Part shown: positions 832-32,669 of the stretch, piece by piece
Numbering within the stretch: position 1 is the stretch's first letter
How the letters are laid out: every line of letters begins with the position of its first letter
NCBI GenBank assembly: GCA_021798985.1
Contig: JAJZBI010000010.1
Span: forward strand, 1-64,000
DNA: 64,000 nucleotides
Direction: 5' to 3'
From: Actinomycetes bacterium
GTDB taxonomy: Bacteria > Actinomycetota > Acidimicrobiia > Acidimicrobiales > Bog-793
Program-made: the position numbers and the translations under genes
The notes under the pieces: generated by a model
What the model saw: only the letters and a program-made list of their open reading frames with translations
Told to the model about the DNA's origin: nothing
Databases searched by the model: none

Positions 832-2583
832 CTAAGGCTGTCTCGCCGGTGCATGCACCTCAAGTACGTCTAGCCAGAGCGCCAGCGGGCCCGCGTGAAA
901 GAACCGCTCGCTGGCGCGGTCCGCGTTGATTCCTGCAAGTTCAAGGGCAACCTGCCCACCATCGCAACTTCGCCGCGCACACAGCAGCACGACAACCGCA
1001 GGGTCTTTGGCTTCCCAATTCGAACTAGCGAGGGCCTCATAGCTCCGCAATAAGCCGGCCGTGCTTGGCATATCGCGAGGAAGGGCCGTGTAATCATAGA
1101 GATAGAACGATTGGAGCCCGCCGTACCAAGAAGTGGCTTGGGTCGCGCGGTACCAGAACATAGGAACACCGCGATTTCCGGTAAAGCGCCGCAAATAAGG
1201 CTCGATCTGTGTCGCAAGCGTGAGAAGGCTCTGGCCAGTACCCGTCGCCGGATGAAGTCGACCCTGCACAGCAACGCTTCCGTCTATCGGGTAAGCCACG
1301 CTCGCACCCATCATGAGTGAAACGCCCAGGACGAGCGGACGAAAACGGGCTGGGGACGCACCGGCGCACAGTGCCGCGACAAGCAATACACCGAGCAGCG
1401 CGGCAACTACTGCCACGATCGGATATGCGCTAGCACCAATCAGGGATTCCGATGAGTGGAATCTAACGAGCACGAGACACCCAACCACCGCGCCCGCTAC
1501 CCCCAGCGCAGGACCCACGCTTTGCCGCGCGTTAGACAGCAATAGGCGCACGCAGGCGCCGACGCCGAGCGCAATCCCCGGCATCAACAGATTGAAGTAA
1601 TACAAATACTCGGCGAAATAGCCGCCAAACACTAACTCATCCAAGGTCCAAAATCCGCAAACAACGAGCAGATAGATCAACACGCCGAGCGCCGCACTCG
1701 GGAGCTCCCTTCGCCGAAACCGGAACACGCATAGCACCGCCAGCATGATCAGGATGAGAATGGGGGCCACAATATATGGTTCGTTAGGAACCCATGTGTC
1801 ATACGGCAACTTCCAGGAAGATTCGTGCACGCCGACAACCGCCGCCAGCTGCGGCTTCAAGAAGAACGATTCAGTACCGTGCTCAAGTGTTGAGAATAGC
1901 TGGAAGAACGCCAACGAGATCAGGCCGCCTACGACAACCGTAGTCATATCGGCGGCGATCCGCGATAGTGCAACTTTCTCTCGGCCCGGGAGCGAGAAGG
2001 CATAGACAAGAGCGAGCGGAGCAACCACAACGAGCGTGAACAGATTGGCTATTGTGCCGGCGACAGCGGATGCGCCAGCAGCTAAGAGACACACATATTG
2101 CACTCGATTGCCACGGCGCCTGGTTAAGAAGAACAGCGTGAGTGCGACGTAGAAGATCGCCGGGCCATCAAAATAATCGTAGGTAAATGCGGTGGCGATA
2201 CTCTCCAATCCGAGCATGAGAGAGAAGACCGCGATTCCGGGTACTACGCCGAATAGTGTCCGAACCGCGAAGTAGAGCGAGAAGGCCGCGCCAAAGAACG
2301 TCAATCCATGAAACGCCAAATACCCGAACTTTGCACCACCCAATAGAGACAGCACATACTGAGGAGCAATGATCGAAAGCCGCGTTGCATAGTACGTAAA
2401 CGAGAACAGGTGGTACATTTGAACGAAGTTCGTCCAGAAGGACGTGTAGTACCAGGGGTCCAGATCCGTAGCAGGTGTGTAGAGAGCTGGATGCCTTATC
2501 CCATATACGAGCAGAACCGCAGCTGTAATTCCAATGAGACATGCAACCTCTATACCGATCCTTACTCCATCGTTACCGGCCAT
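832..2583 (-). CDS. Multi-pass membrane protein, GT-C glycosyltransferase-like
   Basis: About 583 residues with many hydrophobic segments from the N-terminus onward. The first extracytoplasmic loop (residues ~30-45) contains TDLDPWYY; acidic residues here are typical of GT-C (PMT/ArnT/GT39-like) enzymes that use polyprenyl-phosphate sugars. A soluble C-terminal region of about 130 residues follows. I chose ATG 2583 because the frame upstream is basic, non-hydrophobic and shadow-like; an upstream non-ATG start remains possible. It is the last gene of the minus-strand polysaccharide cluster. The substrate cannot be read from the sequence, and a flippase or polymerase role is an alternative. Confidence 0.65.
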   Translation of the reverse strand: MAGNDGVRIGIEVACLIGITAAVLLVYGIRHPALYTPATDLDPWYYTSFWTNFVQMYHLFSFTYYATRLSIIAPQYVLSLLGGAKFGYLAFHGLTFFGAAFSLYFAVRTLFGVVPGIAVFSLMLGLESIATAFTYDYFDGPAIFYVALTLFFLTRRRGNRVQYVCLLAAGASAVAGTIANLFTLVVVAPLALVYAFSLPGREKVALSRIAADMTTVVVGGLISLAFFQLFSTLEHGTESFFLKPQLAAVVGVHESSWKLPYDTWVPNEPYIVAPILILIMLAVLCVFRFRRRELPSAALGVLIYLLVVCGFWTLDELVFGGYFAEYLYYFNLLMPGIALGVGACVRLLLSNARQSVGPALGVAGAVVGCLVLVRFHSSESLIGASAYPIVAVVAALLGVLLVAALCAGASPARFRPLVLGVSLMMGASVAYPIDGSVAVQGRLHPATGTGQSLLTLATQIEPYLRRFTGNRGVPMFWYRATQATSWYGGLQSFYLYDYTALPRDMPSTAGLLRSYEALASSNWEAKDPAVVVLLCARRSCDGGQVALELAGINADRASERFFHAGPLALWLDVLEVHAPARQP

Positions 2584-2995
2584 ACCGGAACCGGTGCGGA
2601 GCGGACGGCTAGCAGACGAGCCAGCGGAGAGCAATGGCTTTCGTTGCTGCTCGGCCAGACCGGCTAACACGAGCCGTTTGATCCGTGATGCTTTAACCTG
2701 CCTGCCAGGAGATGCCTGGCCATGCGACGCGTCACTGTGCGGAAATAGTTGGGGAGAGTGAAGCCCTGACGGCCAGCACCCACGCCTCCGCCTTTTCGTC
2801 CGAGTTCCCGACAACAACGCCGCGCATGCCGCAACTAGCACAACCCCCCCCTAGTTCAATGCAAGAGACCGAGCCGACCCGGAGTGCCGCGCACATTCGA
2901 AGCCGATGCCGACAGAAATGCCACATGCGGGAAAAACGGTCGACTTCGGCCAGGGAGCATTAAGATCCAACCACGCAATTCGGTGCCAAACATGG
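2584..2995. other. Gap in polysaccharide locus; no intact gene
   Basis: No supported gene. The minus-strand frame 2851-3057 is the sequence that would continue the membrane-protein ORF ending at 2996 if one copy of the 16-bp tandem repeat at 3029-3060 were absent. The rest shows no recognisable motif. Confidence 0.5.
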
Positions 2996-3373
2996 TCAGA
3001 GCGCTCCCGCAGCATCAGCTGTCCGCCCAGCAAACGACCACCCCAGCAAACGACCACCCCAGCGGACCACCAAGTCCAACTCCGCGACTAAAAACGGAGT
3101 AATCAGCGCCAGCAACGGCATCTCGGCGACACCGTTCCCGCGCAGGCGAAGAGCCGTTAGCCCAACCAGGGTTACGGTTATTGCTACAACAATACGCATC
3201 GCTGGAGTGATGCCGCTGTGGTGCGGTGCAGTCACACGCTGCATTCGCGCCCCTGCGCCAGTTAAAGCGACGAGCATCGCTGCGGCGGAAAACATGGCGA
3301 GCGCGTAGCGATGAGTGTTGAGGGGTATCCCCACAAGACCACAAATTCCAAGCGCGCCCACACCAGAACTCAT
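2996..3373 (-). CDS. Small membrane protein, possibly frameshifted at its C-terminus
   Basis: 125 residues with about three hydrophobic segments (ALGICGLVGIPL, YALAMFSAAAMLVALTG, MRIVVAITVTLVGLTAL) and no family I recognise. Its ATG overlaps the stop of the upstream small membrane ORF by four bases (ATGA), suggesting translational coupling or an old frameshift splitting one gene. The C-terminus (RLLGWSFAGRTADAAGAL) runs through a 16-bp tandem duplication. With one copy the frame would instead continue into LLGGQLMLRERSDHVW and extend about 60 residues to the stop at 2851. Which form is native cannot be decided here. Confidence 0.45.
   Translation of the reverse strand: MSSGVGALGICGLVGIPLNTHRYALAMFSAAAMLVALTGAGARMQRVTAPHHSGITPAMRIVVAITVTLVGLTALRLRGNGVAEMPLLALITPFLVAELDLVVRWGGRLLGWSFAGRTADAAGAL
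3029..3060. repeat. 16-bp perfect tandem duplication
   Basis: AGCAAACGACCACCCC occurs at 3029-3044 and again, immediately adjacent, at 3045-3060; a degenerate third copy (AGCGGACCACCA) follows. The unit is not a multiple of three, so copy number sets the reading frame of the overlapping membrane-protein ORF. Confidence 0.9.
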
Positions 3374-3621
3374 GCGCAGTGCACCGGCGCTAGCGCTAAC
3401 GCCGCGAGGGCAAGTATCCAGAGCACCGTCAAGGCATCGCTGCTAATCCGCGAAGCGGTCAAAAGGTAAGGGCTTATGCCGACAGTAGTTGTCGCGGCAC
3501 TGCCGAGCGCCGCTACTCCGATCGTCGCGGCTCCTAACGTCCGCTGCGCGTTACGAGAGTCGGCGCTCGTTATAATCGCTAAACGAGACCCATTATGCCG
3601 GCGCATGAGTCGCCCACGCAT
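3370..3621 (-). CDS. Small hypothetical membrane protein
   Basis: About 83 residues from ATG 3621, with AGGG five bases upstream; a TTG at 3633 overlapping the stop of the glycosyltransferase (TTGA) is an alternative start. Two hydrophobic stretches (TLGAATIGVAALGSAATTTVG and ALTVLWILALAALALAP) suggest a membrane protein. Its stop overlaps the next ORF start by four bases. It may be the N-terminal half of a single membrane protein split by a frameshift. No family recognised. Confidence 0.4.
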   Translation of the reverse strand: MRGRLMRRHNGSRLAIITSADSRNAQRTLGAATIGVAALGSAATTTVGISPYLLTASRISSDALTVLWILALAALALAPVHCA

Positions 3622-3629
3622 TCTTTCCC

Positions 3630-4619
3630 TCAACGGCGATCGGTTGCCGTTTTCGTGCCACAGGCGAGGGAATCGCTTGTTGAACTTCTCCCAGCGGTTA
3701 CTTCATCGACGAAGTACAGCGGCCTCGCCTTTGCTTCCTCAAAGACGCGCGCCAGGTATTCACCAACGATCCCGATTGTAAACAGCTGTACTCCTCCCAT
3801 CATGAAGACGAGGGCAATGACTGATGTAAAGCCGTGGATAGCCGTATTGTCGACGAGCCGAGCATAAAGAACATACGCGAAAAAGCACCCGCACAATAGC
3901 ACGACTGCTATCCCAAGCCGACGGACCAATCGTAGCGGGACTGTCGAAAACGAGAACACAGCGTCGAGCGACAGCCGCACCATGTGTGAGAGTGAGTACT
4001 TTGTGGAGCCAGCGAAACGGGCGTCTCGCACGTAAGGAATGCCAATCTGTTCGAATCCGATCCAGCTTGACATGCCTCGTAGGAAGCGGGAATGCTCGGG
4101 CATTGACCGAAGTGCGTTCACGGCCCGTTTTGAGTAGAGACGGAAGTCACCGGCGTCCGCTGGCATGGCAATGTCAGTGAGGCGCCGGAACAGCCAATAG
4201 AAGCCAGTCGCCGTCCACCGCTTCACACGCCGCTCACCGGCCCGAACCGCGCGAACCGCATAAACCACCTCGTAACCCTCACGGGACTTTTCCAATAACG
4301 CGGGTATTAGTTCGGGTGGATCCTGTAAGTCTGCATCCATCACTACTACAGCATCACCACGGGCATTATCCATGCCGGCAGTGATCGCCACCTGATGCCC
4401 GAAATTGCGGCTCAGGCGGATAGCCTTCACGCGCATGTCCTTCCTAGCTAGCTGGCGCAATAGCTCCCAGGATCCGTCCCTTGACCGGTCGTCAACGAAG
4501 AGGAGCTCGAAATCATGTCCTGAGAGGGCCTCACATAGGCGGCGATAAAGCTCCGGCAGAGTGTCGATTTCGTCGTAGACCGGAAGCACTACCGACAGCA
4601 CAATGTTCTCCCTTCGCAA
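3630..4619 (-). CDS. GT2 family glycosyltransferase, GtrB/DPM1-like
   Basis: 329 residues. The N-terminal GT-A domain begins LSVVLPVYDEIDTLPELY, with FVDDRSRDGSWELL for nucleotide-sugar binding and VVMDADLQDPPELI carrying the metal-binding DxD motif. Two C-terminal transmembrane segments (LGIAVVLLCGCFFAYVLYARL and FTSVIALVFMMGGVQLFTIG) followed by VGEYLARVFEE match the GtrB/ArnC-like layout. These enzymes transfer a sugar to undecaprenyl phosphate on the cytoplasmic face. In this locus the lipid-linked sugar could feed the GT-C-like membrane protein encoded downstream. Donor sugar unknown. Confidence 0.85.
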   Translation of the reverse strand: MRRENIVLSVVLPVYDEIDTLPELYRRLCEALSGHDFELLFVDDRSRDGSWELLRQLARKDMRVKAIRLSRNFGHQVAITAGMDNARGDAVVVMDADLQDPPELIPALLEKSREGYEVVYAVRAVRAGERRVKRWTATGFYWLFRRLTDIAMPADAGDFRLYSKRAVNALRSMPEHSRFLRGMSSWIGFEQIGIPYVRDARFAGSTKYSLSHMVRLSLDAVFSFSTVPLRLVRRLGIAVVLLCGCFFAYVLYARLVDNTAIHGFTSVIALVFMMGGVQLFTIGIVGEYLARVFEEAKARPLYFVDEVTAGRSSTSDSLACGTKTATDRR

Positions 4620-4637
4620 TTGCGCGGGCGAGCGGCA

Positions 4638-5432
4638 TTACGAGTTCTGACGCAATACTGCGAGATATTGGGCGCCCAGCGCTAAGTGGGCAAGGCGCTC
4701 TTCGACCCTGCGGAATAGCTGTTGGTCAAACGGGAAGATAAGGGTGTAGTCGATCGACAAGGGACAAAGACCGATCTGGCTGCACATCTTACGAATCGAC
4801 GACCACCGCACCAGTACGACACCATCATCGAATGGACAACGCGCCACCGCGAGTCGCGCAAGTGGGTTGAAAGGATTATGCTCCGCAATGATAATGATAC
4901 CCGCGGGACTGCAAACACGCTTGAGCTCTAGTAGGAGACGCTCCCTCTCGAGTGGAGCTACGTGATGAAACACATTCACTGCATAGACAACATCGAAACA
5001 GGCACTGGGAAAAGGCAGTGAAAAGCCATCGAATTGGAGCAAAGGTAGCGGTAACGTCGCCCGGGCAGCTTGATGAAGCATGGCATGAGATACGTCAGCG
5101 CCCAGCACGGTACCAAACTGAGCGATCAAGTGTTTCGCAACATCACCCGCGCCGCACCCGACATCTAAGACTCTTGTCCCCGCGAGGTCTTTGAGATGCC
5201 GCGCCGCCAATCGGACAATGAGCTGGGCTTTGACGCGCACATAAAAGTCGTGATCCTGTCCAGCGAATGAGATCGAATTCTCGACTAGCTGCCCATAACT
5301 CGATGCGACTTCATCGAATTGTTCCATGGCCAAGTGGTGCACCTCACTCCCCGATAGCCGCGAATCGGCAGCAGGGCAGTCCGCTTCTATCACCATCGCG
5401 CGCGTGCCCGGTCCAGAATAAGCGATAGCCAC
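4638..5432 (-). CDS. Class I SAM-dependent methyltransferase
   Basis: 264 residues. The SAM-binding motif I is VLDVGCGAGDVAKHL (around residue 90), followed by the acidic end of strand 2 (VLGADVSHAML) and YAVNVFHHVAPLERE as motif IV. An N-terminal helical region contains FDEVASSYGQLVEN, as in UbiE/Methyltransf_11 proteins. It lies among glycosyltransferases, so a sugar or lipid-linked intermediate is the likely substrate, but this is inferred from context only. ATG 5432 was kept as start; ATG 5396 is an alternative. Confidence 0.75.
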   Translation of the reverse strand: MAIAYSGPGTRAMVIEADCPAADSRLSGSEVHHLAMEQFDEVASSYGQLVENSISFAGQDHDFYVRVKAQLIVRLAARHLKDLAGTRVLDVGCGAGDVAKHLIAQFGTVLGADVSHAMLHQAARATLPLPLLQFDGFSLPFPSACFDVVYAVNVFHHVAPLERERLLLELKRVCSPAGIIIIAEHNPFNPLARLAVARCPFDDGVVLVRWSSIRKMCSQIGLCPLSIDYTLIFPFDQQLFRRVEERLAHLALGAQYLAVLRQNS

Positions 5433-5535
5433 GCTCGTCCGCTATTGTCAGGCATTGGCATGAAGTCGAAGTCGCAATGCTCGATCCGCCGCCGTGTCGC
5501 TCGATGGCTGGTGATGATGTCGCGCGCTTACCGTC

Positions 5536-6450
5536 CTATCGATCATGTCGGCGGCCTTGAATCAAACCCTCAAGCATCTGTCGACCACCGTGACGCACAG
5601 CGCTATTGAAGCGCAAAAGAGTTCCCTTGAATCGCTTGTGCGGGCTCAGGCGTCGCACCACATATCCGTCATCGGCTGGCATCAGCTCGTGCGTCGCATC
5701 GAGGACAGTACGAACTGACAACGCCCCGCCCATCAATTCGTAGTTGCGTCGGGCATCATGCGAACGCGATAGGTGCCACAGATCCGTGAAGCCGGCTCCC
5801 GATCCACTGACATGCCGATAGCCGTGAGGTTGGTGGAACGTAGTAATTGTTGGCGTGGCGTCGATAAGAGGAAACCCAAGCCGAAGAGGCTCAGCCATGA
5901 GCCAATTGTCCCATGCCGTCCTACCAATGGCGAAGGGCGGAATCGCGCGGAAAGTATTAGGCGTGAAGGCAAAGAAGTCGCTACCGGTACCGTCATTCAT
6001 AACACCGTCGCGTCTAGCCTTTTCGATCACTGGTTGACGCCAGTCATCGCGTTCGAAATCGATAGCATCAGCTAGATCAACATCGATGCGACGTCCGACA
6101 ACGAGAAACTCCTCGAAGTGACGAGCGACGGTCAGCAATGGGGTAACGAACGGGTCGAGCGTAATAATGTCGGCATTGATGTAACAAAGCAGCTGGTTCG
6201 GGTAGCGCTGGCGTACAGCGTCGAATACGGCGTCTAACCGAGGTGCGCCGCCCTCGGAGCGATCACGCACAGCCAAGTAGTCGGTGCCAAGGGCGGCACA
6301 CTCATCAGCCAGCCCTGGCTCGTCTCCTGCGAGCACGATGTATGGACGAGGAGAAAGACGCTTCCAACTCTCTACCGCGCTTCGCTGACTGTGGCCTGCA
6401 TCACCAGAGAAGGTGCGCGGCACACTAAAGAGAATCACTTCCTTAGTCAA
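5536..6450 (-). CDS. Glycosyltransferase-like protein (GT-A type), polysaccharide locus
   Basis: 304 residues with a GT-A-like fold: EVILFSVPRTFSGDAGHSQRSAVESWKRLSP at the start (split here as one region, residues 4-34), then a probable metal site in LLCYINADIITLDPF and a substrate region around GTGSDFFAFTPNTFRAIPPF. It resembles uncharacterised nucleotide-diphospho-sugar transferase-like proteins of surface-glycan clusters. Start is TTG 6450, overlapping the end of the upstream methyltransferase by eight bases. No signal peptide or membrane segment. Donor and acceptor are unknown. Confidence 0.6.
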   Translation of the reverse strand: MTKEVILFSVPRTFSGDAGHSQRSAVESWKRLSPRPYIVLAGDEPGLADECAALGTDYLAVRDRSEGGAPRLDAVFDAVRQRYPNQLLCYINADIITLDPFVTPLLTVARHFEEFLVVGRRIDVDLADAIDFERDDWRQPVIEKARRDGVMNDGTGSDFFAFTPNTFRAIPPFAIGRTAWDNWLMAEPLRLGFPLIDATPTITTFHQPHGYRHVSGSGAGFTDLWHLSRSHDARRNYELMGGALSVRTVLDATHELMPADDGYVVRRLSPHKRFKGTLLRFNSAVRHGGRQMLEGLIQGRRHDR

Positions 6451-7276
6451 CTGTAGCCGTCAAGAGCAAATGCCAGCCAAACACTCTTTCGAGTTTGCGA
6501 AAGAGGTATGGCGGCAGCGCATCTACCCAGCGCTTGTAAACGTAGCGGTGCTCTACATACTCCGCCACTCGGTACGGAAAAATATGCGCAATAGCACAAT
6601 TTTCTACCCTGAAGCCACCCTGTTCGAGCAACCTGCGCCCTTGCTGTCGCGTGTAGGTATAGGTGACAGGGCATCCAGTTTGAGCCTCGGAGTTCTTCGC
6701 GATGATCTCCGCTGACCGACGGAAGTCACCGTGCCCCTCGAGGACTACCGTGGCGAACACCTTCACCGACCGACGGTGATAAACCATCACCTTCAATGTG
6801 GTGCCGGGTTTGCTCAGCAGATGGGCCTGTCCGATTACAGCTTCGGGGTGAGGAGTGTGATGTATTACTCCAAAAGAATAAATAAGGTCGAACGTCCGAG
6901 CGCCCAGCGTCTCTGTGAGCGCTTCGGCGTTGCAATTTATAAACTGGATTCTGTCTTGTAGTCCGAACAATTCGGCACGTTGACGTGCAATCGCGATTGA
7001 CTCACTCGACAAATCAACAGCTGTTACCCGAGCACCAGCGCGCGCAAAATTTATAGTGTCGGTCCCAATTCCACAACCTATCTCGAGAACGTCTTGGTCG
7101 TGCCACTGTGCAAAGTTGGCGAAACTGGGAATGTGCGGCTCAACGAGATACTTCCGGTGCTCGACTTGGTCAAAGTATTCTCGAGTCCCTTGCGGTGCCT
7201 TCGAGTGTCGGACGTTGCATGGCCGAGTATCCCAGTATCGCCGGACCGCATCGATGGGAACGTTAGTGAATGTCAA
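6443..7276 (-). CDS. Class I SAM-dependent methyltransferase
   Basis: 277 residues with motif I DVLEIGCGIGTDTINFARAG, VTAVDLSSESI closing strand 2, and FDLIYSFGVIHHTPHPEAVI as the later motif. The start is TTG 7276: a clear ribosome site AAGGAGA (7281-7287) lies four bases upstream. It is tightly packed between two glycosyltransferase-like genes, so it probably methylates a sugar residue, lipid-linked intermediate or glycan end. Reaction inferred from context only. Confidence 0.8.
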   Translation of the reverse strand: MTFTNVPIDAVRRYWDTRPCNVRHSKAPQGTREYFDQVEHRKYLVEPHIPSFANFAQWHDQDVLEIGCGIGTDTINFARAGARVTAVDLSSESIAIARQRAELFGLQDRIQFINCNAEALTETLGARTFDLIYSFGVIHHTPHPEAVIGQAHLLSKPGTTLKVMVYHRRSVKVFATVVLEGHGDFRRSAEIIAKNSEAQTGCPVTYTYTRQQGRRLLEQGGFRVENCAIAHIFPYRVAEYVEHRYVYKRWVDALPPYLFRKLERVFGWHLLLTATVD

Positions 7277-7285
7277 GCTGTCTCC

Positions 7286-8692
7286 TTAGTGACGACGCGG
7301 CGACATAACGAGTCGGTCGGCGTTCGCGGCGTGTGGCAAAGTCCATGTCGGAGTAGTTACCCAACGTTCGGCGAGCATGCATTCCGCTAAGCCCCATGAC
7401 TCGTCGTTAAGCGGTCCGAGCTCTCGAGATCGCGCGGCGTGGTAGTACTTGGTCGCGCATCCGGCGAAAGCCTCGGACGTGAGATAGGGCACACCAGTAG
7501 CCTCTAGCCGAGAGAATAGCGCAGACTCGTAACCTGGAACATATCCAGAGCCCTTCGCATGCTCCAGGTGCCAAACTGGTGCGGTCTGCCCATCGATGTC
7601 GATCTCTTGGATGCCGAGAGCAGATGCATAATGCAAGAAGACGGAATCCAAATGCCAGCTGAATATCGGCCATTCAGGATACGCGCGAGTACGAGCCCAG
7701 TCTTCTGCCGACAACAGCGTGAAATCGCCACATCCATTAGTGTGCAAATGCGGAAGTGCGTGCGTGTCGATCCATGCGATTCTTAGCGAACGTGTGACCG
7801 CGATTGCGAATTGGGTGGTCCGCCGCATCAGTCCAGATACGAACCTTACAATGGTGAGGGTGATGTTGGGAGTGCGCGAGAGCGATCGACGCAGAGATGT
7901 ACCGCTATGTCGCGCAGCAGAAAGTACCCGACGCCGCCAGCTAGGACGGGTCATCGCTCTCGCTCGCACCGGCCGAGGCGCCACCTTAAATGCCTTAATC
8001 CACCCGATTGCACTCTGGCAGGCGCCCATCGCTATAAGCGCAAGTCGCCGAACAGCGACACGAGGTGCGCGCCGAAGCAGTTTCCACAGCAGCCCATTGA
8101 AGCTCGTGATGACAGGAACGAAGACCCCACCCTCCTTAAACCACGTTCCATAGCGCTCATTTTTTCTGATCGTGTGAGCGCGACACCAACGCTGTATCTC
8201 GTCGAAATCGACGGCTCGGGGCGGGTGCGGTTCGACATCGTGGCGGTCCGCCCGATATAGACACTCAGGGCGGAGGCGCTTAAGCGCGGCAAATATACCG
8301 TCGGACATTAGGATATCAATATTGGTTGCACAGATATACTCTCCAAGACTACGGCGAATGCCCACATTTTTCGCGATCATTTGGAATAGTGGGAGTGCCT
8401 CGGAATGCGCAAAACGAGCATGTAGCTCCGGAGGGACCGTGATAATGCGGATACCTAACAGTCCACCGCTAGGTGGCCACTGCAGCACCTGATCGAGCGG
8501 CGGCGCGTCAGAAGGGGGATTCCATTCGACAAGCACCAGCTCCGCAGTGAGGCCGTGACGCCGACACTGGCGGTCGAGGCCATCGATGAAGTGTTGCATG
8601 CGACCGAGCAGGTCAAGTCCATGGTTATCGTTCCGAGAGGTCGCAACGAACGATACCGTGGGTCGGCCAGCTGGAATTCTCGAGTGCGGCAC
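7286..8692 (-). CDS. Large glycosyltransferase-like protein, polysaccharide locus
   Basis: About 468 residues from a GTG at 8692; the frame stays open to ATG 8902 but the extra 70 residues look non-coding. The N-terminal part reads PTVSFVATSRNDNHG and later LVEWNPPS, AKNVGIRRSLGEYICATNIDILMSDGI, like the GT-A core with a variant metal motif (TNID). A long basic insertion sits around residues 200-290. The C-terminal half (TNGCGDFTLLSAEDWARTRAYPEWP; ASALGIQEIDIDG) resembles the end of GalNAc-transferase-like domains. It may be distantly related to the neighbour at 5536-6450. Start uncertain; substrate unknown. Confidence 0.55.
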   Translation of the reverse strand: MPHSRIPAGRPTVSFVATSRNDNHGLDLLGRMQHFIDGLDRQCRRHGLTAELVLVEWNPPSDAPPLDQVLQWPPSGGLLGIRIITVPPELHARFAHSEALPLFQMIAKNVGIRRSLGEYICATNIDILMSDGIFAALKRLRPECLYRADRHDVEPHPPRAVDFDEIQRWCRAHTIRKNERYGTWFKEGGVFVPVITSFNGLLWKLLRRAPRVAVRRLALIAMGACQSAIGWIKAFKVAPRPVRARAMTRPSWRRRVLSAARHSGTSLRRSLSRTPNITLTIVRFVSGLMRRTTQFAIAVTRSLRIAWIDTHALPHLHTNGCGDFTLLSAEDWARTRAYPEWPIFSWHLDSVFLHYASALGIQEIDIDGQTAPVWHLEHAKGSGYVPGYESALFSRLEATGVPYLTSEAFAGCATKYYHAARSRELGPLNDESWGLAECMLAERWVTTPTWTLPHAANADRLVMSPRRH

Positions 8693-8919
8693 CGGAGCAT
8701 CGTATGCGGTATCACGCGTTCGACACCAAGGATACCCAGCGGGCGATGGCAACGCCCCCCGAAAGAGCACCGCGACTGCTCGTCGGCGGTCGGATACCGC
8801 AGCTTTCGCCCTACAAGCGAGGGGTGACAGTCGAAGTAAATGAGAGTATCGGCCTCTAGAATCGCAAGCATGTCCGTCGACACTGAGGCTGGAGCGCGCC
8901 ATATGAGCCTGCCTGACTC

Positions 8920-31023: not shown

Positions 31024-31743
31024 GTGCCCGCGCTCGATGTCACCGATGCCACCTTCGAATCCGACGTCCTCGCCGCCTCGGACGAGGCACCCGTCGTCGT
31101 CGACCTCTGGGCCCCGTGGTGCGGCCCGTGCCGCACCCTCGGGCCGATCATCGAGAAGGTCGTGGACGAGACGAACGGCGCCGTCCGCCTCGCCAAGGTG
31201 AACGTCGACGAGAACCCCCAGGTCTCGGCCGCCTTCCAGGTGCAGTCGATCCCGGCCGTCTTCGCCATCTCCAAGCGCAAGGTCGTCGACGGCTTCATCG
31301 GCGCCCTCCCCGAACCACAAGTCCGCGACTTCGTTGGCCGCGTCGGCGGCGCGGCAACACCGAGTGAGGCCGACGAGCTCGTCGCCAAGGGCGACGAGGC
31401 GTCGCTCCGAGCCGCCCTCGAGCTCGAGCCCGACCACGCCGGGGCGATCGTCGCCCTTGCCGAGCTGCTCGTCGACGACCAGCGCCCCGAGGAGGCGCTC
31501 ACCCTCCTCGGCCGGATCCCCGAGAACGCCGAGACCCGGCGCATCGCGGCGCTGGCCCGGCTGGCGGCGAGCGACCAGGACGCCGCCACCTCCGACGTCG
31601 AGGCGCGCCTCGACGGCCTGCTCGAGCGGGTGAAGGAGGACGAGGACGCCCGACGCGAGTTCCTCGACCTGTTGGAGACGCTCCCGACCGAGGACCCGCG
31701 CCGCGCCACGTACCGCCGGGCGCTCTCTTCTCGACTCTTCTGA
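31024..31743 (+). CDS. Thioredoxin-TPR protein, CnoX/YbbN-like
   Basis: 239 residues from GTG 31024. Residues 1-~108 are a thioredoxin domain with the intact active site WAPWCGPCRT (Cys33, Cys36) and the cis-proline in VQSIPAVFA. Residues ~115-239 are a tetratricopeptide-like helical tail (LRAALELEPDHAGAIVALAELLV and EEALTLLGRIPEN). This is the CnoX architecture, a chaperone-redoxin that protects proteins and hands them to GroEL. The CxxC should allow redox activity. First gene of an operon with the FolP2-like gene 29 bases downstream. Confidence 0.85.
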   Translation: MPALDVTDATFESDVLAASDEAPVVVDLWAPWCGPCRTLGPIIEKVVDETNGAVRLAKVNVDENPQVSAAFQVQSIPAVFAISKRKVVDGFIGALPEPQVRDFVGRVGGAATPSEADELVAKGDEASLRAALELEPDHAGAIVALAELLVDDQRPEEALTLLGRIPENAETRRIAALARLAASDQDAATSDVEARLDGLLERVKEDEDARREFLDLLETLPTEDPRRATYRRALSSRLF

Positions 31744-31772
31744 CTTCTCGACTCTTCTGAGCGCCGCCATTC

Positions 31773-32669
31773 GTGCGACAATCCGGGATCGCCTCCGGTC
31801 CAATCTCTGACGAGCTCGTCGCCCCGGCGGCCGCCGCCGAGCTCGTGCTCGGCCGGTACCGCTTCGACGTCACCAAGCGGGCGCTCGTGATGGGCATCTT
31901 GAACCGCACGCCGGACTCCTTTTTCGACCACGGCGCCTATTTCGCCCTCGACGACTTGCTGCGACGCGCCGAGGGCCTCGTCGCGGCGGGCGCGGATCTG
32001 CTCGATGTCGGCGGGGTGAAGGCCGGCTCGGGGCCGGTCGTCACCTTGGACGAGGAGCTCGAGCGCGTCGTCCCGACCGTCGAGGCCCTCGCCCAGCGCT
32101 TCGACGTGCCGATCTCGGTCGACACCTGGAACGCCACGGTCGCCGAGGCCTCCTACGCGGCGGGCGCGGTGCTCGGCAACGACATCTCGGGCTTTGGCGA
32201 TCCCCGCTACCTCGCGGTCGCCGCCGCCGCCGGGGCGGGGGTGGTCGCCACCCACATCCGCTTAAAGCCCCGCGTCGACGACCCGAACCCGACCTATCCG
32301 CACGACGACGTCGTCGGTGCCGTCGAGGACTTCCTCGCACGCGCCCTCGACCAAGCGGTCGCCACGGGGGTGCGGCGCGCCTCGGTGATCCTCGATGCGG
32401 GCCTCGATCTCGGAAAGACGACGCCGCAGTCCCTCGAGCTGCTGCGCGCCTCGGACCGCCTGGCACGCCTCGGCGCCCCGCTGTTGCTGTCGGCCTCGAA
32501 CAAGGACTTCTTGGGCCGGATGTTCGACCTCCCGGTGACCGAGCGCAACGAGGCCTCCCTCGCCGCGGTCGCCCTCGGGGTCTCCCTTGGCTGTCGGATC
32601 GTGCGGGTGCACGACGTCGCCGGCTCCCGAGCGGTGTGCGCCACGATCGCCGCCATCTTGGACCAATGA
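31773..32669 (+). CDS. FolP2-type dihydropteroate synthase paralogue
   Basis: 298 residues, pterin-binding TIM barrel from GTG 31773. The first loop reads MGILNRTPDSFFDHG instead of the catalytic NVTPDSFSDGG-type loop. The second reads DVGGVKAGSG instead of the GGESTRPG-type loop. A third is LLSASNKDFLGRMF. These substitutions match mycobacterial FolP2 proteins, which are not regarded as functional dihydropteroate synthases. Folate synthesis should therefore not be assumed. It overlaps the start of holA by four bases (ATGA) and belongs to a four-gene operon. Confidence 0.82.
   Translation: MRQSGIASGPISDELVAPAAAAELVLGRYRFDVTKRALVMGILNRTPDSFFDHGAYFALDDLLRRAEGLVAAGADLLDVGGVKAGSGPVVTLDEELERVVPTVEALAQRFDVPISVDTWNATVAEASYAAGAVLGNDISGFGDPRYLAVAAAAGAGVVATHIRLKPRVDDPNPTYPHDDVVGAVEDFLARALDQAVATGVRRASVILDAGLDLGKTTPQSLELLRASDRLARLGAPLLLSASNKDFLGRMFDLPVTERNEASLAAVALGVSLGCRIVRVHDVAGSRAVCATIAAILDQ

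Follow-up and report, generated by a model that had tools for sequence, protein, structure and literature searches.

Phase variation by simple sequence repeats relies on homopolymer and tetranucleotide tracts, which comprise many short units and mutate frequently. In the capsule genes of the pneumococcus, where duplications are involved instead, reversion rises with the length of the duplicated segment. Spontaneous duplications within these genes, at the type 3 capsule locus and in cap8E/wchA and tts, reportedly bring about phase variation (Waite et al. 2001, 2003, as quoted in an excerpt of PMC4022640). For insertions no longer than nine bp, the same excerpt gives an expected reversion of at most ~1e-5. 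Duplications in Staphylococcus aureus differ in their stability: an excerpt of PMC6686034 describes a duplication in agrA that yielded no revertants and another mutation, a duplication plus inversion, that did revert.

Here we describe a perfect tandem duplication of a 16-bp unit that invites comparison with these systems. Like the pneumococcal duplications, as far as the excerpted text of PMC4022640 presents them, it is short, arranged in tandem, and located within an ORF of a glycan locus; in both, a length not divisible by three shifts the frame and is in principle reversible by loss of a copy. The two cases part at the level of the gene. In the pneumococcal examples the capsule genes are known, they have a capsule phenotype, and phase variation is reported in the titles quoted there, whereas the ORF duplicated here (hereafter ORF2) is an orphan with one allele in the assembly. 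The locus also resembles simple-sequence-repeat phase variation in that repeat number sets the frame, but those tracts contain many short units, whereas this array has two. Weighing the evidence presented below, we consider the repeat to be most probably an ordinary tandem duplication of 16 bp within weakly coding sequence and not a switch. The relevant features are as follows.

3026..3063, no strand assigned: perfect tandem duplication comprising 2.4 copies of a 16-bp unit
2996..3373, minus strand: ORF2, 125 aa, without a family match; a simple hydropathy scan detects three hydrophobic segments
2851..3057, minus strand: one-copy frame encoding the 57-residue alternative end, in the non-coding score range
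3370..3633, minus strand: ORF1, 87 aa from the listed start, lying between the glycosyltransferase gene and ORF2; it contains one hydrophobic segment and matches no family
3630..4619, minus strand: GT2 glycosyltransferase, best NCBIfam models PgfS and ArnC-type, both below cut-off
832..2841, minus strand: ORF for a large polytopic membrane protein (669 aa with the listed start) that has ten hydrophobic segments

The array spans 38 bp at 3026-3063, reads CCCAGCAAACGACCACCCCAGCAAACGACCACCCCAGC, and shows 100% identity across 2.4 copies of the 16-bp unit. The window, by which we mean the whole 64-kb stretch of DNA analysed, contains two perfect tandems of period 10-40, the other being a 17-bp unit repeated twice at 31727-31760. 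As a chance model we used 60 first-order Markov simulations of 64 kb each. Simulated windows held a mean of 0.28 perfect tandems of period 10-40, and across all 60 no perfect tandem of period 16-40 arose. The 16-bp repeat therefore exceeds chance and is a duplication, not a chance similarity. An earlier note on this DNA had claimed such a duplication, placing the copies at 3029-3044 and 3045-3060; the duplication is real and its position was given correctly. A search of the assembly for a one-copy version returned only the two-copy array.

Copy number determines where ORF2 ends, since the unit lies inside the ORF and 16 is not divisible by three. With two copies, the assembled state, the product has 125 aa and stops at 2996. 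A single copy would yield 168 aa with a stop at 2851, three copies 124 aa with a stop at 3015, and four copies 184 aa, again with a stop at 2851. The one- and two-copy products share their first 111 residues and then diverge, with 57 C-terminal residues in the one-copy end vs 14 in the two-copy end. The frame change proposed in the earlier note, in which the same start leads to 2996 with two copies and to 2851 with one, is thus arithmetically sound, with 57 differing residues. The one-copy frame is also the frame of the large downstream ORF: from 3060 to 2580 it is interrupted only once, by the TAG at 2851-2853.

Coding potential was scored with a codon-usage table trained on six neighbouring ORFs only. 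The body of ORF2 is weakly coding, with a score of 0.022 (18% of true-frame windows score lower, and 9% of wrong-frame windows score as high or higher). A second frame across this body is also stop-free, so openness alone says little. The 21 codons of the two-copy end score 0.003, but this stretch is too brief for a verdict. For the one-copy tail the score is -0.049, which falls in the non-coding range (5% of true-frame windows lie below it, and 37% of wrong-frame windows reach or exceed it), and the hydropathy scan detected no hydrophobic segment in this tail. The ATG of ORF2 overlaps the stop of ORF1 (ATGA). Judged from its sequence, the 125-aa ORF2 may be a gene, and since its weakly coding body carries three hydrophobic segments, it is perhaps a real one whose end matters.

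ORF1 as listed starts with TTG; an in-frame ATG lies at 3621 with AGGGA just upstream. Its codon score of -0.003 (12% of true-frame windows lower, 17% of wrong-frame windows as high or higher) is no better than that of another frame over the same bases that contains three stops (0.000). Among 197 other genomes of the order it has four matches at E 0.002-0.006, a count made without a decoy comparison.

Searches for relatives of ORF2 returned weak matches at best. Neither ORF1 nor ORF2 matched Pfam or NCBIfam at E <= 0.1, nor did either match PHROGs. At E <= 10, Pfam gave two weak matches (best 0.21), both within the shared body of ORF2, and none for ORF1 or the one-copy tail. A scan of genome contigs found no ORF2 relatives, and at E <= 0.5 both ORFs were absent from 80 named glycosyltransferase loci and from 21 loci of other genomes of the order, the latter located via the glycosyltransferase and searched with only ~1.5 kb of flank. 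Protein-level matches at E <= 0.1 occurred in 45 of the 197 other order genomes for ORF2 vs 38 for its exact reversed decoy; hits numbered seven vs nine at E <= 0.01 and three vs one at E <= 0.001, and the best E values were 2.1e-5 (one genome) vs 7.1e-4. Because the decoy draws nearly as many matches as ORF2, most of the latter probably reflect composition. The best E value and the count at E <= 0.001 speak in favour of ORF2.

We inspected the loci of the two best ORF2 matches. Both are ABC-transporter ATPase ORFs (PF00005) beside permease-like genes, and both alignments run through ORF2's two-copy end. ORF2 aligns over the stretch of the Walker A motif, which is marked by a lysine, and lacks that lysine; it also has no ABC_tran match at E <= 10. 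We therefore read this apparent kinship as probably due to chance. Structure prediction from the single sequence gave helices only, with a mean pLDDT of 57 and a pTM of 0.33, too poor for a fold search.

The surrounding genes place the duplication in a glycan locus. The GT2 glycosyltransferase scores 269.9 bits against the PgfS model (cut-off 500) and 190 bits against that for an ArnC-type undecaprenyl-phosphate transferase (cut-off 529). The 5' part of the large membrane ORF, 2581-2841, has a codon score of -0.159 and is non-coding by this measure, so the protein probably starts near the ATG at 2583. This protein has no match in Pfam, NCBIfam or PHROGs, none among the 197 other order genomes, and none among plasmids; there are two weak matches among 395 other genomes of the phylum. 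The minus strand of 832-8902 encodes both of these proteins together with two methyltransferases and ORFs lacking a family match, and its GC content is 57%, vs 70% in 10000-64000. We infer that 832-8902 is a low-GC, foreign-looking glycan island that was probably acquired horizontally. Island DNA had no match in 34 other genomes of the family, 19 of them at >=90% completeness and <=5% contamination. A control search with the core stretch 31300-32400 found matches in 30 of the 34, so the island's absence from them is meaningful, the two same-genus genomes, which match the core stretch over short pieces only, being the closest relatives and the weakest controls. The DNA of 2580-3660 had no plasmid or phage match.

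The second tandem repeat in the window offers an instructive comparison.

31727-31760: 17-bp perfect tandem duplication, 2 copies, spanning the stop codon of the ORF at 31024-31743

We take this ORF to be thioredoxin-like. The first copy retains the stop, leaving the protein end unchanged. The sequence is single-copy in all 11 relatives read, which come from among the 30 other genomes of the family that gave a match. All 11 belong to other genera of this family; the two genomes of the same genus did not cover the repeat. This distribution suggests that the lineage gains duplications of similar size with no evident switch. Other glycosyltransferase loci contain 10 perfect two-copy tandems of period 14-30 in 758,365 bp, distributed over 9 of the 80 named loci, and three of the 10 have a period not divisible by three. 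Their density is lower than that of the two in this 64-kb window.

What, then, does the duplication represent? The earlier note had offered two readings, slippage that alternates two C-termini or a recent mutation, and our analysis favours the latter. The perfect copies, their number of 2.4, the orphan ORF and the comparable 17-bp duplication all better support a simple mutation, and a recent one would be consistent with them. The proposal of alternating ends found no positive evidence beyond the frame arithmetic. A reversible switch would be expected to display many repeat units, a protein-like alternative product, or a second allele. Instead there are two copies only, the alternative end is unlike protein in its non-coding score and in having neither a Pfam match nor a hydrophobic segment, and the alternative allele was not found in the assembly. 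A 16-bp unit would indeed shift the frame with every copy gained or lost, and the repeat does sit in a glycan locus, as do the capsule-gene duplications whose phase variation is reported in the excerpt of PMC4022640. Yet the reversion figure given there for insertions of up to nine bp suggests that reversion would be rare for a 16-bp insertion too, and the agrA duplication, in the excerpted account of PMC6686034, stands without revertants. We regard slippage between one and two copies as a means of alternating ends as very unlikely. Slightly less likely still is the more specific picture of a rare switch that equips a small three-helix membrane protein of the glycan locus with its short end in one state and a soluble tail of 57 residues in the other, altering a surface glycan in a subpopulation.

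A different history would make the one-copy form ancestral, with a functional 168-aa protein that the duplication truncated, a loss-of-function mutation. The frame does stay open for 57 codons beyond the point of divergence, it is shared with the large downstream ORF across the single TAG, and a single weak match to it, spanning 33 residues at E 0.063, comes from locus L066. The tail's score, its lack of hydrophobic segments and of a Pfam match, and the fact that the locus was found in none of the 34 other family genomes nevertheless make this history improbable. An assembly or sequencing error, which would remove the question altogether, also deserves consideration. The window begins at the first base of contig C62 in a 3.76-Mb genome of 71 contigs, which may be metagenome-assembled; a 16S search of the genome gave no match, a weak point in favour of error given that the same search missed 5 of 14 control genomes. 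The 38-bp array, however, would fit within an ordinary short read, and errors of this kind should therefore be uncommon; we think there is very little chance of one here.

An ordinary tandem duplication is the reading we prefer, and it suggests a simple sequence of events. A single event of replication slippage, or its equivalent, would have copied 16 bp close to the 3' end of ORF2. This small membrane-protein ORF is an orphan, and it lies in a glycan gene island of low GC content that was probably acquired horizontally. The duplication would have shifted the end of ORF2 and otherwise been ordinary, probably neutral and perhaps recent, and the 16-bp repeat presumably does not switch. Its tolerance may stem from the weak coding signal of the interval that separates the glycosyltransferase stop (3630) from the probable start of the large membrane protein (near 2583); this interval could be the remains of a decaying gene.

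This locus illustrates that a frame-changing two-copy repeat is, by itself, no evidence of phase variation. Were switching shown here, phase variation driven by duplications, as reported for capsule genes of the pneumococcus, would extend to a bacterial lineage very different from it.

Two minor observations concern other parts of the locus. At the contig edge, 1-569 holds transposase-looking sequence split over two minus-strand frames (39-569 and 107-337); its family matches are all sub-threshold, one of them to an IS66 accessory-protein model (E 0.067), and the region is possibly an insertion-sequence relic. Further in, positions 2844-2851 form a run of eight C on the plus strand (eight G on the coding strand). 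It is flanked by the TAG that ends the one-copy frame (2851-2853) and by the GTG listed as the start of the large membrane ORF (2841), which share a frame. The run is the sole homopolymer of at least seven bases within the first 10 kb.
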